38,507 nucleotides of DNA from an uncultured Neomegalonema sp. (lineage in GTDB: Bacteria > Pseudomonadota > Alphaproteobacteria > Rhodobacterales > Rhodobacteraceae), in NCBI GenBank assembly GCA_937948985.1, contig CALFAK010000177.1:1-38507 (forward strand), given 5' to 3'. Below, piece after piece: positions 22,312 to 25,994 of this stretch. Position 1 is the first letter of the stretch. Each line of letters begins with the position of its first letter. The position numbers and the translations under genes are program-made. The notes under the pieces were generated by a model. It was not told where the DNA came from, ran no database searches, and saw only the letters and a list, made by a program, of their open reading frames with translations.

Positions 22312-23043
22312 ATGTCTTTTTTCAGGTTTTTGGTCGGTCTCTTGATTGCGGCAGGCGTCGGTTTTGGCCTTTATAAGCTTACTCTCGACCAGGGGTTGGG
22401 CGGTGATACGACGCTGAGGACAACCCCTCAGCTTTCCGGCGAGACCACCGCCGTCCGCGCCCCTATAGAAGAACCGGAGCAACCCGCTTCGAGCGAAGCG
22501 CAAAGTTTCACCGAGCGTACCGAGGCAGCGGTCAATGCCGCCGACGCGCAGGAAACCCAGGAAACACCGGAATTAACCATCACCCGCTCCGAACCCGCGC
22601 CGGAGGCACCGTCTGAAAGCGCGCCGGAAACCGCAACTGAAGCGGCGGCGGAGACTGCCTCAGAAACTGCTCCCGCCGCTGTGGAAACTGAAACTGAAAC
22701 TGAAACTGAAACATCGGCTGCCGCCGCAACCGCAGGCTCGACCGAGGTTCTGGGCACGGTCACCAGCGGTATGAATTACGCCGAGGCCCGTCAGGCGATG
22801 GTTGATGCGGGCTGGCAACCGCGCAGCATCGACGCCGCCGACCGGACCGGAATTATAAAAGACAGCGAGCAAGCCCTGCTGACCAGCGGTTATGAAGAGC
22901 TTGAAGGGTGCAGCGATGCGGCCCGTCCGATCTGTCGCTTTGAGTTCATTGACGGCGGCGACCGGATTGCGGCGGTCATCACGGCGGGTGCGGATAGTGA
23001 CCCGTCAGTCATCGACGCCTTTCTGATGAACGTCCGGCCATAA
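22312..23043 (+). CDS. Membrane-anchored hypothetical protein with acidic Ala/Glu/Thr-rich linker
   Basis: A 243-residue protein, family not recognised. One N-terminal membrane helix (SFFRFLVGLLIAAGVGFGLY) probably anchors it in the inner membrane with the rest outside the cytoplasm. Residues about 40-145 are a low-complexity Pro/Glu/Thr/Ala linker with a Glu-Thr repeat. The C-terminal domain (about 150-243) begins 'GMNYAEARQAMVDAGWQPR' and has two cysteines in 'EGCSDAARPICRFEF', which may form a disulfide. The 'YxxARxxLxxAGWQP' block occurs in small periplasmic domains of unknown role. The ATG at 22312 has AAGGAAG upstream and begins at the helix, so it is preferred over the longer frame to 22219. 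Confidence 0.75.
   Translation: MSFFRFLVGLLIAAGVGFGLYKLTLDQGLGGDTTLRTTPQLSGETTAVRAPIEEPEQPASSEAQSFTERTEAAVNAADAQETQETPELTITRSEPAPEAPSESAPETATEAAAETASETAPAAVETETETETETSAAAATAGSTEVLGTVTSGMNYAEARQAMVDAGWQPRSIDAADRTGIIKDSEQALLTSGYEELEGCSDAARPICRFEFIDGGDRIAAVITAGADSDPSVIDAFLMNVRP
22684..22712 (+). repeat. Hexanucleotide tandem repeat (GAAACT) inside the linker coding region
   Basis: Four full GAAACT units plus five bases of a fifth encode the Glu-Thr run. The unit length is a multiple of three, so slippage would change linker length without breaking the frame. Confidence 0.85.
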
Positions 23044-23075
23044 AACCAAAGCACAGCGCTCGAAACGACTACACT

Positions 23076-23119
23076 AAAAACGGCCCGCGCCCCTGAAACA
23101 GACTTTCAAAAGCGCGGGC
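23076..23119 (-). terminator. Terminator-like hairpin oriented to the minus strand
   Basis: The arms GCCCGCGC (23083-23090) and GCGCGGGC (23112-23119) pair perfectly, and a second inner stem TGAAA/TTTCA closes the loop. Read on the minus strand, the stem is followed by CG and TTTTT (23080-23076). No minus-strand gene lies upstream of it, so it either ends an unannotated minus-strand transcript or also serves the gene ending at 23043. Confidence 0.55.
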
Positions 23120-23183
23120 GGCGCGGCCCTCCAAATCCTCGCTAAACCCGCAATAATTACAATATTCTAGTTTTGTTCTGCAA

Positions 23184-23199
23184 TGTTTCACGTGAAACA
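23184..23199. promoter_or_regulatory. parS: parS centromere-like site (ParB binding)
   Basis: TGTTTCACGTGAAACA is a perfect 16-base palindrome identical to the canonical bacterial parS consensus. The dyad extends by one base each side (23183-23200). ParB loads here, spreads as a CTP-dependent clamp, and recruits ParA and SMC to segregate replication origins. In most bacteria such sites cluster near oriC, so the window may lie in the origin-proximal part of a chromosome or on a large replicon with its own ParABS. No parA or parB gene is in the window. Confidence 0.92.
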
Positions 23200-23277
23200 T
23201 CCGGCGAAACCCCCATAAACCCCGCCATAGCGATGCACGTTAATTAACTCTCCTTAAAGGTGATGAGGGTATATTTA

Positions 23278-23511
23278 ATGTTCAATAACAATTGCTTAGC
23301 ACCTCAAATCACTGCGGCACCCGAAATCACTAAAGCACGTAAAACCGCTCAACCGAAGCCGCAACGGTGCCAGAGCGCTATTGCTCCGGATGCCGTGCGT
23401 GCCAAAAAACCACAAAACGCTCTCCTCCCGGTTGAATTTCCGGAAGCAAATTTAATGCACACCAACATCACGCCGCATAGCGATGCGGCCAAGGGTGCGT
23501 TTCTCCCCTAA
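23278..23511 (+). CDS. Doubtful small hypothetical protein
   Basis: A 77-codon frame starts at an ATG with GAGGG eight bases before it and ends at a TAA lying inside the first Fic-upstream palindrome. The product is basic, Ala/Pro/Lys-rich, with no recognisable domain, signal peptide or membrane helix. It could be a small regulatory or structural protein, or chance. No family is recognised. Confidence 0.25.
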   Translation: MFNNNCLAPQITAAPEITKARKTAQPKPQRCQSAIAPDAVRAKKPQNALLPVEFPEANLMHTNITPHSDAAKGAFLP

Positions 23512-23611
23512 GAAAAATCTTATGGGAGAAAGTGGGGGTGTTTCTGACATAAGGATTTTCTTATTGCAAAAAATGGGGGTTTTCTGACATAAGAAAATTC
23601 TTATTGCAGAA
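23500..23611. repeat. Three tandem ~40-bp repeats, each with an ATAAG-N6-CTTAT-type palindrome, before the Fic gene
   Basis: Palindromic cores lie at 23508-23523 (CTAAG-N6-CTTAT), 23549-23564 and 23589-23604 (both ATAAG-N6-CTTAT), spaced 41 and 40 bases, close to four helical turns. Copies 2 and 3 share TTTCTGACATAAG before the core and CTTATTGCA with a G-rich tail after it. Copy 1 sits in a larger inverted repeat, TTTCTCCC/GGGAGAAA (23500-23531). The last copy ends about 27 bases before the Fic start codon. The regular phasing suggests cooperative repressor binding, plausibly by the Fic protein's own C-terminal winged-helix domain. The alternative, replication iterons, is less likely without a rep gene. 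Confidence 0.75.
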
Positions 23612-23631
23612 AGTAGGGCAGTTTGTGAGAT

Positions 23632-24768
23632 ATGGACCTCAGCGAGTATCAAGCGGGTAGAGTCGAAGCCCGGCATGAATACAAAAGTTTTGTACCATCT
23701 AAGATAAACCATTCGTGGGTTATCGCAGATCCGGAAGTTCAAAGATTGCTGGGTCAGGCGGACCGGGCACTCGGCGAATTGAACGCCTTCTCGGCACTGG
23801 TTCCAGACATTGACTTTTTTGTACGCATGTATGTTGCGAAAGAAGCAACGCAATCGAGCCGTATCGAAGGCACACAAACCAGTATTGAGGATGCTTTTAA
23901 GGATAAGGATGATCTTGACCCCGAAGCGATAGATGACTGGTCAGAAGTCCAGAATTACATCAGAGCTATCAATCATGCGATTGAACGATTGGAGACTTTG
24001 CCTCTGTCCAATCGTTTGCTTCGCGAAGCCCATGCTATTCTAATGCAAGGTGTTCGCGGTGAAAACAAGATGCCTGGAGATTTCCGGATCAGTCAAAACT
24101 GGATCGGAACGAGCCTCAAGAACGCGGTCTTCGTGCCACCTCACCATGAGCATGTGCCTGACTTGATGAGCGACATGGAGAGGTTTCTCCATGAGGATGA
24201 GCTGTTTGTGCCGCCACTTATCCGGATTGCTATCGCTCATTATCAATTTGAAACCATTCATCCTTTTCTCGACGGAAACGGACGTTTGGGGAGGTTGATG
24301 ATTTCGCTTTACCTTGCGTCGACTGACTTGCTGCGACAGCCTGCCCTTTATCTCTCTGATTACTTCGAACGCAACAAGACATCCTATACCGATCATTTGA
24401 TGGGAGTCAGGCAGGGCGACCATATGAGGGAATGGTTGATCTTCTTCCTAATCGGCGTGGAAGAAACGGCGAATGCGGCCGTAAGTGTTTTCCGGTCAAT
24501 TCTTGATTTGAAAGCCGGAATAGAGGCAAGCGTTTTACCTAAATTTGGTATCAGGCGCGTTAACGCTGCTCAAAAACTCATAAAACATTTATATGCGTCT
24601 CCGATTATTGATGTGAAATCCACATCAGAATTGATCGGAATTGTGCCGAACACGGCGACCAAACTGATCGCCGATTTTGTTGAGTATGGCATACTGACCG
24701 AAATCACCGGACAAAAGCGCAATCGACTGTTCATATTCAAAGACTACGTCGCGCTTTTCAAAACCTGA
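23632..24768 (+). CDS. Fic-domain protein with C-terminal winged helix-turn-helix
   Basis: A 378-residue Fic protein, predicted to transfer AMP from ATP to a target protein side chain (AMPylation). The catalytic motif HPFLDGNGRLGR (residues 210-221) is intact. The N-terminal segment carries the inhibitory motif S-x-x-x-E-G (SSRIEG, Ser75-Glu79), typical of self-inhibited class II Fic proteins. The C-terminal 80 residues ('AQKLIKHLYASPIIDVKSTSELIGIVPNTATKLIADFVEYGILTE' region) look like a winged helix, so the protein may bind DNA. It is preceded by a triple palindrome, an obvious candidate operator for autoregulation. Base usage appears more AT-rich than the fab genes, which suggests transfer. 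Its stop lies eight bases from the convergent fabB stop. The start codon lacks a strong ribosome binding site, and the target is unknown. Confidence 0.92.
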   Translation: MDLSEYQAGRVEARHEYKSFVPSKINHSWVIADPEVQRLLGQADRALGELNAFSALVPDIDFFVRMYVAKEATQSSRIEGTQTSIEDAFKDKDDLDPEAIDDWSEVQNYIRAINHAIERLETLPLSNRLLREAHAILMQGVRGENKMPGDFRISQNWIGTSLKNAVFVPPHHEHVPDLMSDMERFLHEDELFVPPLIRIAIAHYQFETIHPFLDGNGRLGRLMISLYLASTDLLRQPALYLSDYFERNKTSYTDHLMGVRQGDHMREWLIFFLIGVEETANAAVSVFRSILDLKAGIEASVLPKFGIRRVNAAQKLIKHLYASPIIDVKSTSELIGIVPNTATKLIADFVEYGILTEITGQKRNRLFIFKDYVALFKT

Positions 24769-24776
24769 CCGCGCCC

Positions 24777-25994
24777 TCAAACCTTACTGAAGCACAGCGT
24801 CGCATTCGTCCCGCCAAATCCGAAGCTGTTGCTCATGACGGTGTCAACACCCGCCCCGTCGATGCGCTCGCGGACGATGGGCATGTCGGCGAAGTCGGGG
24901 TCAATCTCGTCGATATGGGCCGAAGCCGCTACGAAATCGTTTTGCATCATCAACAGGCAATAGATTGCCTCCTGCACACCCGTCGCGCCCAGCGAGTGGC
25001 CGGTGAGGGATTTGGTGCTGCTCAGATGCGGGATGTCACCGCCGAACGTGTCGCGCAGGGCTTGGATTTCGCGGGCATCGCCGACCGGGGTCGAGGTTCC
25101 GTGGGTGTTGACGTACTTGACCTTGCGGCCCTCCAGCGTGCTCATCGCGAGGTTCATGCAACGGACCGCGCCTTCGCCGGATGGGGCGACCATGTCGAAA
25201 CCGTCCGAGTTCGCACCGTATCCGGTTAGCTCGCCATAGATGGTCGCGCCCCTTGCTTTGGCGCGTTCATATTCTTCCAACACCACCGTGCCCGCGCCCC
25301 CTGCGATGACAAAGCCGTCGCGGTTCTTGTCATAGGCACGGCTGGCAACGCCCGGCGTCTCGTTATAGCCGGATGACAGCGCACCCATCGCATCGAAAAG
25401 GCAGGTGAGTGTCCAGTCCAGCTCCTCACCACCGCCCGCAAACACGATGTCTTGCTTGCCAAACTGGATCAATTCCGCGCCGTGGCCGATGCAGTGGGCT
25501 GAGGTCGAACAGGCGGACGAAATCGAGTAGTTCACACCCTTGATCTTGAACGGTGTGGCCAGCGTGGCGGAGTTGGTGCTGGACATGGCACGGGGCACAA
25601 AAAACGGCCCGATGCGCTTGGTTGCGCCCGTCCGGCGCACAATGTCTGCCGCCTCCACCTGATTGCGGGTCGAGGGGCCGCCGGACCCCATCACGAGGCC
25701 CGTGCGCACGTCGCTGACCTCTTCTTCGCTGAGGCCGGAATCGGCAATCGCCTGCTGCATGGCGATATAATTCCACGCCGCGCCGTCGCCCATAAACCGC
25801 CGCACCCGCTTGTCCACGAGAGCGGTGATGTCCACATCGGGCCTGCCCGCCGCGTGGCTGCGGAAACCGTGTTCGGCTTGTTCTTCGGAGAAACTGATAC
25901 CCGATTTCCCCGCGCGCAGAGACTCGCGCACGGCGTCAACGTCGCTGCCGATTGACGATACGATACCCATTCCGGTTACGACCACACGGCGCAT
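24777..25994 (-). CDS. fabB: Beta-ketoacyl-ACP synthase I
   Basis: A 405-residue condensing enzyme that elongates acyl-ACP and is needed, with FabA, for unsaturated fatty acids. The N terminus [16 protein letters not shown], active-site Cys162 in [10 protein letters not shown], and the histidines in '[12 protein letters not shown]' and '[11 protein letters not shown]' are intact. Pairing with fabA 40 bases upstream on the same strand supports FabB over FabF. GGGAGAA precedes the ATG at 25994. Confidence 0.95.

Follow-up and report, generated by a model that had tools for sequence, protein, structure and literature searches.

Which protein reads the phased palindromes that lie directly before the fic gene of an uncultured Neomegalonema sp., and what would its binding do to that gene? 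The whole stretch of DNA that was analysed (contig CALFAK010000177.1, 38,507 nucleotides) is referred to here as the window. A preliminary description, made from the letters of this stretch, had proposed that the Fic protein binds sites in its own promoter. On the comparative evidence given below, the Fic protein is most probably a single-gene, self-repressing AMPylase of the toxin type that binds its own array as a dimer.

The Fic protein and its upstream array

The fic gene (23632-24768, + strand) encodes a SoFic-like class II Fic protein of 378 aa, as determined by profile and structure searches. Pfam domains Fic_N and Fic were detected in the protein (Fic E 6.1e-20), and the catalytic motif HPFx[D/E]GN[G/K]RxxR is satisfied by HPFLDGNGRLGR at H210-R221 (residues 210-221; 24259-24294, + strand). 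In class II Fic proteins, an inhibitory (S/T)xxxE(G/N) motif precedes the Fic core. This motif is present as S75-S-R-I-E79-G80 (23854-23871, + strand), and S75, E79 and G80 are invariant in a 56-row alignment. Both motifs were located by sequence and alignment, and the class II assignment of the preliminary description is upheld by them.

An AlphaFold2 model of the protein (mean pLDDT 91.3) was used to predict the fold of its C-terminus. A winged helix is predicted at residues 308-376 (24553-24759, + strand), with helices at 310-322, 328-335 and 339-351 and two very short wing strands near residues 357 and 367. The third helix is the putative recognition helix (residues 339-351; 24646-24684, + strand; from AlphaFold2 and column scans) and includes N340, encoded at 24649-24651. 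The wing was placed at residues 353-371 (24688-24744, + strand) by AlphaFold2 and the independent-pair test described below. The C-terminal winged helix first suggested from the translation alone is thus also predicted at the level of fold, with Foldseek matches to SoFic and CbFic2. The nearest solved fold is SoFic from Shewanella oneidensis (SO_4266; PDB 3eqx and 3zcn; Foldseek TM 0.78). The PADLOC SoFic model matches residues 16-376 (E 7e-117, 388.8 bits; the library has no cut-off), and the NCBIfam SoFic equivalog NF046030 gives 175 bits, below its 550-bit cut-off. The protein is therefore a SoFic-like relative and is not classed as a SoFic ortholog.

Upstream of fic, three operator units were delimited from the sequence and by half-site search: unit 1 (23500-23531), an imperfect palindrome TTTCTCCCCTAAG..CTTATGGGAGAAA; unit 2 (23541-23572), TTTCTGACATAAG..CTTATTGCAAAAA; and unit 3 (23581-23612), TTTCTGACATAAG..CTTATTGCAGAAA. 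Their core, ATAAG-N6-CTTAT, starts at 23508, 23549 and 23589, in steps of 41 and 40 bases; the first copy carries a single mismatch (CTAAG) and the other two match perfectly. With at most one mismatch allowed, the core has three matches in the whole window, all of them in the array. Over 2000 dinucleotide shuffles of the window, the mean number of core matches was 0.30, and none of the shuffles had two matches within 50 bases or three within 100. The copies, order and spacing given in the preliminary description were therefore borne out, with nothing similar in any of the 2000 shuffles.

Each core copy lies within a 32-nt palindrome of the form TTTCTGACATAAG-N6-CTTATTGCAGAAA. A search without a preset motif returned six half-sites of alternating orientation at -131+, -113-, -90+, -72-, -50+ and -32-, with starts 18-23 bp apart and a unit of 40-41 bp. 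This array scored 60 bits; among 648 shuffled upstream regions from the family, the highest score was 29.0. Motif comparison across relatives added a seventh half-site, TTTGTGAGAT (23622-23631, + strand), which differs from TTTCTGACAT by two mismatches and abuts the ATG start codon at 23632. Within the set formed by the window and loci L016-L037, TTTCTGACAT with at most three mismatches stands exactly before the start codon in 14 of 23 cases, against a background rate of 0.33%. The phased palindromes before fic are real, and the array is larger than first described.

Promoter-like hexamers, TTGCAA (23564-23569) and CATAAG (23588-23593), were picked by eye on the + strand and are 18 bases apart (together 23564-23593). 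They fall on units 2 and 3, downstream of unit 1, and the palindromic sites thus sit at what appears to be the gene's own promoter. A TTG hexamer is found at about the same place in 9/12 relatives compared by eye; a consensus promoter scan returned nothing on the + strand, the putative hexamers included. In the window, the array is confined to the promoter side of fic and touches the start codon. At 23622-23634, and likewise in L016-L026 and L035, a half-site fills the usual spacer of the ribosome-binding site, and some loci with a half-site at the start codon have a GGAG-like stretch further upstream.

The array and its surroundings among homologues

The discovery set comprised 190 loci (the window, 80 from one-genome-per-species contigs, 29 from class genomes and 80 from viral contigs). 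Of these, 171 had a clean upstream stretch and encoded a protein no shorter than 340 aa, and 162 were retained after near-identical loci were dropped. The new set comprised 168 loci (some of them re-fetched discovery viral contigs), of which 165 had a Fic frame and 163 were usable; 61 loci, at most 85% identical to the discovery set or to each other, were kept. Arrays were called significant above the 95th percentile of 648 shuffles.

When the upstream regions of homologues were compared for the palindrome and its spacing, the pattern foreseen from the single locus recurred as a significant half-site array in 118 of 162 discovery loci (57/75 in the first set with the window; 61/87 in the others) and was not significant in the remaining 44. 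It was also significant in 40 of the 61 later loci. The array was absent in all five loci in which fic overlaps an upstream ORF on the same strand (L060, L081, L084, L088 and L094; by Pfam, three of these upstream genes are restriction-modification related and two have no match), so the array goes with possession of an own promoter. Operon position or, as judged by eye, weak arrays below the threshold account for only some of the 44 loci.

The spacing was also recovered by autocorrelation. Upstream of fic in the first set, the mean z was 1.67 at lag 40 (SE 0.11, n=76), and the other top lags were 41, 70, 71 and 80. The 40-bp lag was not among the eight best in control regions downstream of fic (n=80), within the gene (n=81) or 630-800 nt upstream (n=73). 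The best lag fell at 39-42 in 29/76 upstream regions versus 3.6 expected; the control counts were 9/80 downstream, 1/81 in-gene and 2/73 far upstream. The downstream count (L016-L095, window included) is itself above the 3.8 expected. In two more distant sets, lag 41 leads with z 0.94 (SE 0.19, n=29) and 1.03 (SE 0.12, n=70). Control Fic proteins were picked by a short open frame among the matches listed, regardless of operon position, and 33 of the 34 fetched were used. In these short proteins, which lack the winged helix, z at lag 40 was -0.32 (SE 0.17), the best lag was 39-42 in 0/33, and arrays were found in 3/33.

Adjacent palindrome centres are separated by steps of 20.0 or 20.5 bp in 48/91 spacings. 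Half-sites of opposite orientation are most commonly 20, 21, 22, 16, 18, 23 or 24 bp apart, pairing up to about 40, and those of the same orientation are commonly 30 or 40 bp apart. On B-DNA, 20-22 bp span about 68-75 A. Judged from these sequences, the phased multi-unit array is a trait of the family and is found in several bacterial phyla.

Five relatives (L020, L021, L023, L024 and L025) carry lone half-sites without a partner arm at about -80 and -10, with 30/40-bp phasing. Their upstream regions hold two half-site triads (+ - +) at a distance of about 70 bp, and a 30-bp step crosses the putative -35 box; the window has an unbroken 40/41-bp series.

Searches of whole genomes placed the tandem array only at fic in the genomes searched. 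The exact 13-nt half-site TTTCTGACATAAG occurs twice in the window's own genome (3.4 Mb), both times in the array, and its matches with one or two mismatches were at control level. The exact core ATAAG-N6-CTTAT also occurs singly at two other places in this genome; 44 places were found with at most one mismatch and 40 with the reversed control pattern, so by itself the core is no commoner than expected by chance. No other pair of cores within 100 bases was present among the matches listed. The concern that the repeats might recur in this genome away from fic is thus answered by a half-site exact only in the array and by the lack of a second core cluster among those matches. Pedobacter cryophilus has three perfect operators and a fourth degenerate one before fic at 41-bp steps; five other places matched with three mismatches, versus two for the reversed control pattern. 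The window-type palindrome (at most three mismatches) was found in four of five further genomes at five places, and the positions are those of the fic loci L020, L021, L023 and L035; at this threshold it was not found in the genome of L026.

The genes around fic were counted from 53/73 upstream and 60/76 downstream ORFs, the totals of 73 and 76 being defined by ORF length alone and those dropped being mostly small or doubtful. Among these 53 and 60, no conserved neighbour, regulator or antitoxin was common near fic. Restriction-modification families lead: the commonest upstream Pfam family was Methylase_S (4/53, among the best 25 of 78 families), and downstream N6_Mtase, HsdM_N and Eco57I were found in 4/60 each (among the best 25 of 93 families). 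A small ORF at 23260-23511 was considered as a partner and rejected; its best match near 80 related fic genes had E 2.0 over 12 residues, and it has no Pfam family.

In the window, fic and fabF are convergent and their ends are 8 bases apart (24768-24777), which leaves no space there for a downstream antitoxin gene like AS1 (described below). Seven loci of the same genus show no fic beside fabF, with 1.5 kb covered in six of them on the flank that would carry fic and 0.36 kb in L444, and the same-family genomes among the matches listed (4 and 20) gave no fic match at E <=1e-60; the gene therefore looks accessory. Many fic relatives are located on plasmids or viral contigs. Many SoFic-like genes were found on predicted viral contigs (L126-L205, L230-L307), some with arrays of their own, and phages or prophages may therefore carry them as defence against rivals.

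Half-site sequence and the winged helix

The half-site reads TTTCTGACATAAG in the window's group and TGCAAATATAA, CTAAAATAAG, AAAGTAAAATAA, CTTTGACTAAG, ATCCTTTCTTTG or others elsewhere. Because it varies among homologues, a test of the reader is possible. Column scans were run on 97 of the 118 array loci, kept at a further 85% identity cut. Over all pairs of these 97 loci and with Fic-domain identity removed, alignment column 340 was the best of 333 for half-site similarity (partial r 0.276; next 0.196). In the model, residue 340 comes second in the putative recognition helix (339-351). A scan of 12-residue windows done in the same way put those at 295-301 and 199 first and the helix windows (334 and 337) fifth and sixth. 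In scans of distant pairs, residue 340 ranked 4th of 313 and 3rd of 340 columns, and is therefore supported without being singled out.

Half-site classes were defined by residue 340 together with residues 343-345, and the word belonging to each class was chosen on the 162-locus set itself. On this discovery set, class N has TGA[AC]AT in 35/41 versus 4/121 others, class S..R has TGC[AG]A in 15/17 versus 19/145, and class P.AKS has GAAAGGA in 11/12 versus 3/150. Class P.GK has TAAAGG in 5/6 versus 6/156 others, class A has TAAAATAA in 6/12 versus 2/150, class Q has GACTA in 4/7 versus 3/155 and class P..KA has ACTAG in 3/4 versus 4/158. The class words cover 99/162 loci, and 63 loci fall in classes without a rule. 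Three of the seven rules, once frozen, held on the 61 new loci: A (5/8 versus 0/53, p 9e-6), P..KA (7/16 versus 2/45, p 7e-4) and N (3/4 versus 3/57, p 0.002). On the same loci, S..R (1/2 versus 8/59), Q (0/3) and P.GK (0/1) were not confirmed, and P.AKS had no members. With up to 85% identity to members of the discovery set, these loci are related to it by descent rather than independent.

Common descent is the chief concern for this covariation, and contrasting pairs were drawn from a tree of the catalytic domain alone. The contrasts for and against each rule were 3:0 for N, 2:1 for A, 3:0 for Q, 4:1 for S..R, 1:0 for P.AKS, 2:0 for P.GK and 2:1 for P..KA. No single class among the seven was significant by sign test; pooled, 17 contrasts were for and 3 against, a count that serves as a guide only since tips are partly shared between classes.

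In 55 phylogenetically independent pairs, the uncorrected correlation with half-site similarity was 0.40 for the winged helix and 0.30 for the Fic core. Winged-helix identity predicts half-site similarity beyond the Fic domain (partial 0.30, p 0.0075). Parts of the Fic domain were near zero after correction, as expected because their own identity is removed. The wing, a block singled out following an earlier window scan, was the strongest element (partial 0.40, p 0.002), and the best 7-residue window was 365-371 (family-wise p 0.006, 55 pairs). The recognition helix alone was no predictor in these 55 pairs (partial -0.15, p 0.86). The deep sorting of classes by residue 340 and the wing effect in close pairs together suggest that the helix separates deep classes and the wing finer differences. 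The half-site sequence covaries with the winged helix of Fic; at the level of sequence comparison, this is established alongside the array itself, its phasing, its place at fic and its presence across the family.

A protein other than Fic might still be the reader. The array would then be recognized by an unlinked host regulator, and the winged helix of Fic would, for example, hold the enzyme on DNA or shape the dimer. Such a division agrees with the failure of the recognition helix to predict half-sites in close independent pairs, and with the account in PMC10628234 that a Fic winged helix, that of CbFic2, can bind DNA with no known sequence preference. It does not explain why winged-helix identity adds prediction beyond the Fic domain or why, in the genomes searched, the long sites are found only at fic, and among the families listed no neighbour exceeds 4/53 upstream or 4/60 downstream. 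Three Pedobacter loci (L071, L087 and L095) have three different helices and three different half-sites, which speaks against an unlinked regulator and equally against a host promoter consensus. We consider an unlinked reader unlikely.

Probable self-repression, its alternatives and known systems

In the reading preferred here, the Fic dimer would bind the half-site array through its C-terminal winged helix. The half-sites alternate in orientation about two helical turns apart and would span the region from promoter to start codon, and a dimer seated on them would block polymerase and shut off transcription of fic. That the protein binds, that it represses instead of activating, that a dimer is the unit bound and that binding is cooperative are what we infer. 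The core of the preliminary description, that Fic reads sites in its own promoter, is well supported by the comparative evidence and by the precedent of CccR. The preliminary description had added that binding would be cooperative and would tie expression to AMPylation state or ATP level, and for these proposals it is the phasing and the literature about relatives that may be cited. The DNA-bound dimer may also be an enzymatically quiet or deAMPylating form, as literature on relatives would allow, and expression would then be coupled to the state of the enzyme. Such coupling of operator binding to enzyme state is plausible because a deAMPylating dimer is proposed for CbFic2 and a turn of the C-terminal domain is described for EcSofic.

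It is improbable that Fic binds the array and activates its own promoter, or both activates and represses it. Half-sites on both sides of the promoter-like hexamers, as well as over them, would be compatible with activation; the units overlap the putative -35 and -10, though, and a half-site reaches the start codon, which is the usual place of repressor sites, and the described relative CccR is a repressor (PMC9755527).

The palindromes could also act in RNA, as hairpins or attenuators in a leader, since the units are inverted repeats and could fold. This reading has very little probability, because the lone half-sites of the five relatives above keep the 30/40-bp phasing without a partner arm, the promoter-like hexamers of the window lie downstream of unit 1 and fall on units 2 and 3, a search of 23000-24900 against Rfam gave no match at E <=1, and folding would give no reason for half-sites to change along with the winged helix. 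A mobile-element end or recombination site travelling with the gene is just as improbable: the acquired look of fic, absent beside fabF in the seven same-genus loci, and the many relatives on plasmids or viral contigs would suit it, but in the window the array flanks only the promoter side and runs up to the start codon, 5/5 loci with an overlapping upstream same-strand ORF lack it, and there is no common neighbour family.

Self-repression through a private array might be extended to the whole family of winged-helix Fic AMPylases, in several phyla and on viral contigs and plasmids, although we hold this wider version to be doubtful. Specificity would have diversified with the wing and recognition helix, and each array would be both a transcription switch and a resting place of the enzyme, with dimers on one face of the DNA held quiet or deAMPylating. 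Loss of the array-bound state, whether ATP changes, a phage attacks the DNA or the protein is titrated, would free active toxin and derepress the gene at once. The result would be a one-gene circuit resembling a toxin-antitoxin system, with DNA as the antitoxin.

Self-repression is already known in one relative, CccR (PMC9755527). Searches of PMC listed no such arrays apart from the CccR case, and on that basis both the family-wide occurrence of a phased multi-unit array and the covariation of its half-sites with the winged helix are new. SoFic-type genes have been described as one-gene anti-phage systems, and the account in PMC12249575 calls the restraint of their toxicity open. A private, covarying operator array would be a general and testable answer to how this toxicity is held down. 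The family would also be a natural set for learning how winged helices encode DNA specificity, and its regulation would become predictable from sequence.

Four relatives were compared with the window protein. SoFic, whose fold match spans 351-356 alignment columns of 378, is about 26% identical to it, and its DNA binding had not been shown as of 2023, according to PMC10628234. CbFic2 of Coxiella burnetii, a class II Fic protein whose C-terminal winged helix binds DNA (PMC10628234), shares this architecture with the window Fic at lower similarity (TM 0.60). Its binding was tested with random DNA, the portion of that source available names no specific operator or sequence preference, and the DNA-bound dimer is proposed there to deAMPylate. 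EcSofic, as described in PMC12249575, is a dimeric class II Fic toxin and phage-defence protein with a C-terminal domain turned differently from that of the ATP-bound Shewanella relative. The window Fic is likewise class II and of the phage-defence type; EcSofic has the 47-aa antitoxin gene AS1 downstream, whereas the window has the convergent fabF.

The closest parallel is with CccR of Yersinia pseudotuberculosis, a secreted effector in which a Fic domain is joined to a C-terminal HTH and which acts on a palindrome near -35 and -10 to repress its own promoter (PMC9755527). One operator, AGATAATCAT-N26-ATGATAATCT, is reported there; repression needs the dimer, and the DNA-binding helices are about 70 A apart. 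Both proteins have a C-terminal HTH or winged helix (predicted here) and a palindrome at their own promoter (putative here). By our own comparison, the ~70 A between the helices of CccR corresponds to ~21 bp, close to the half-site spacing of 18-22 bp seen here. The two systems differ in that the 26-bp gap between the half-sites described for CccR does not occur in the window array, and in that the window has three units and a further half-site, at 40-41 bp per unit, in a pattern that is family-wide.
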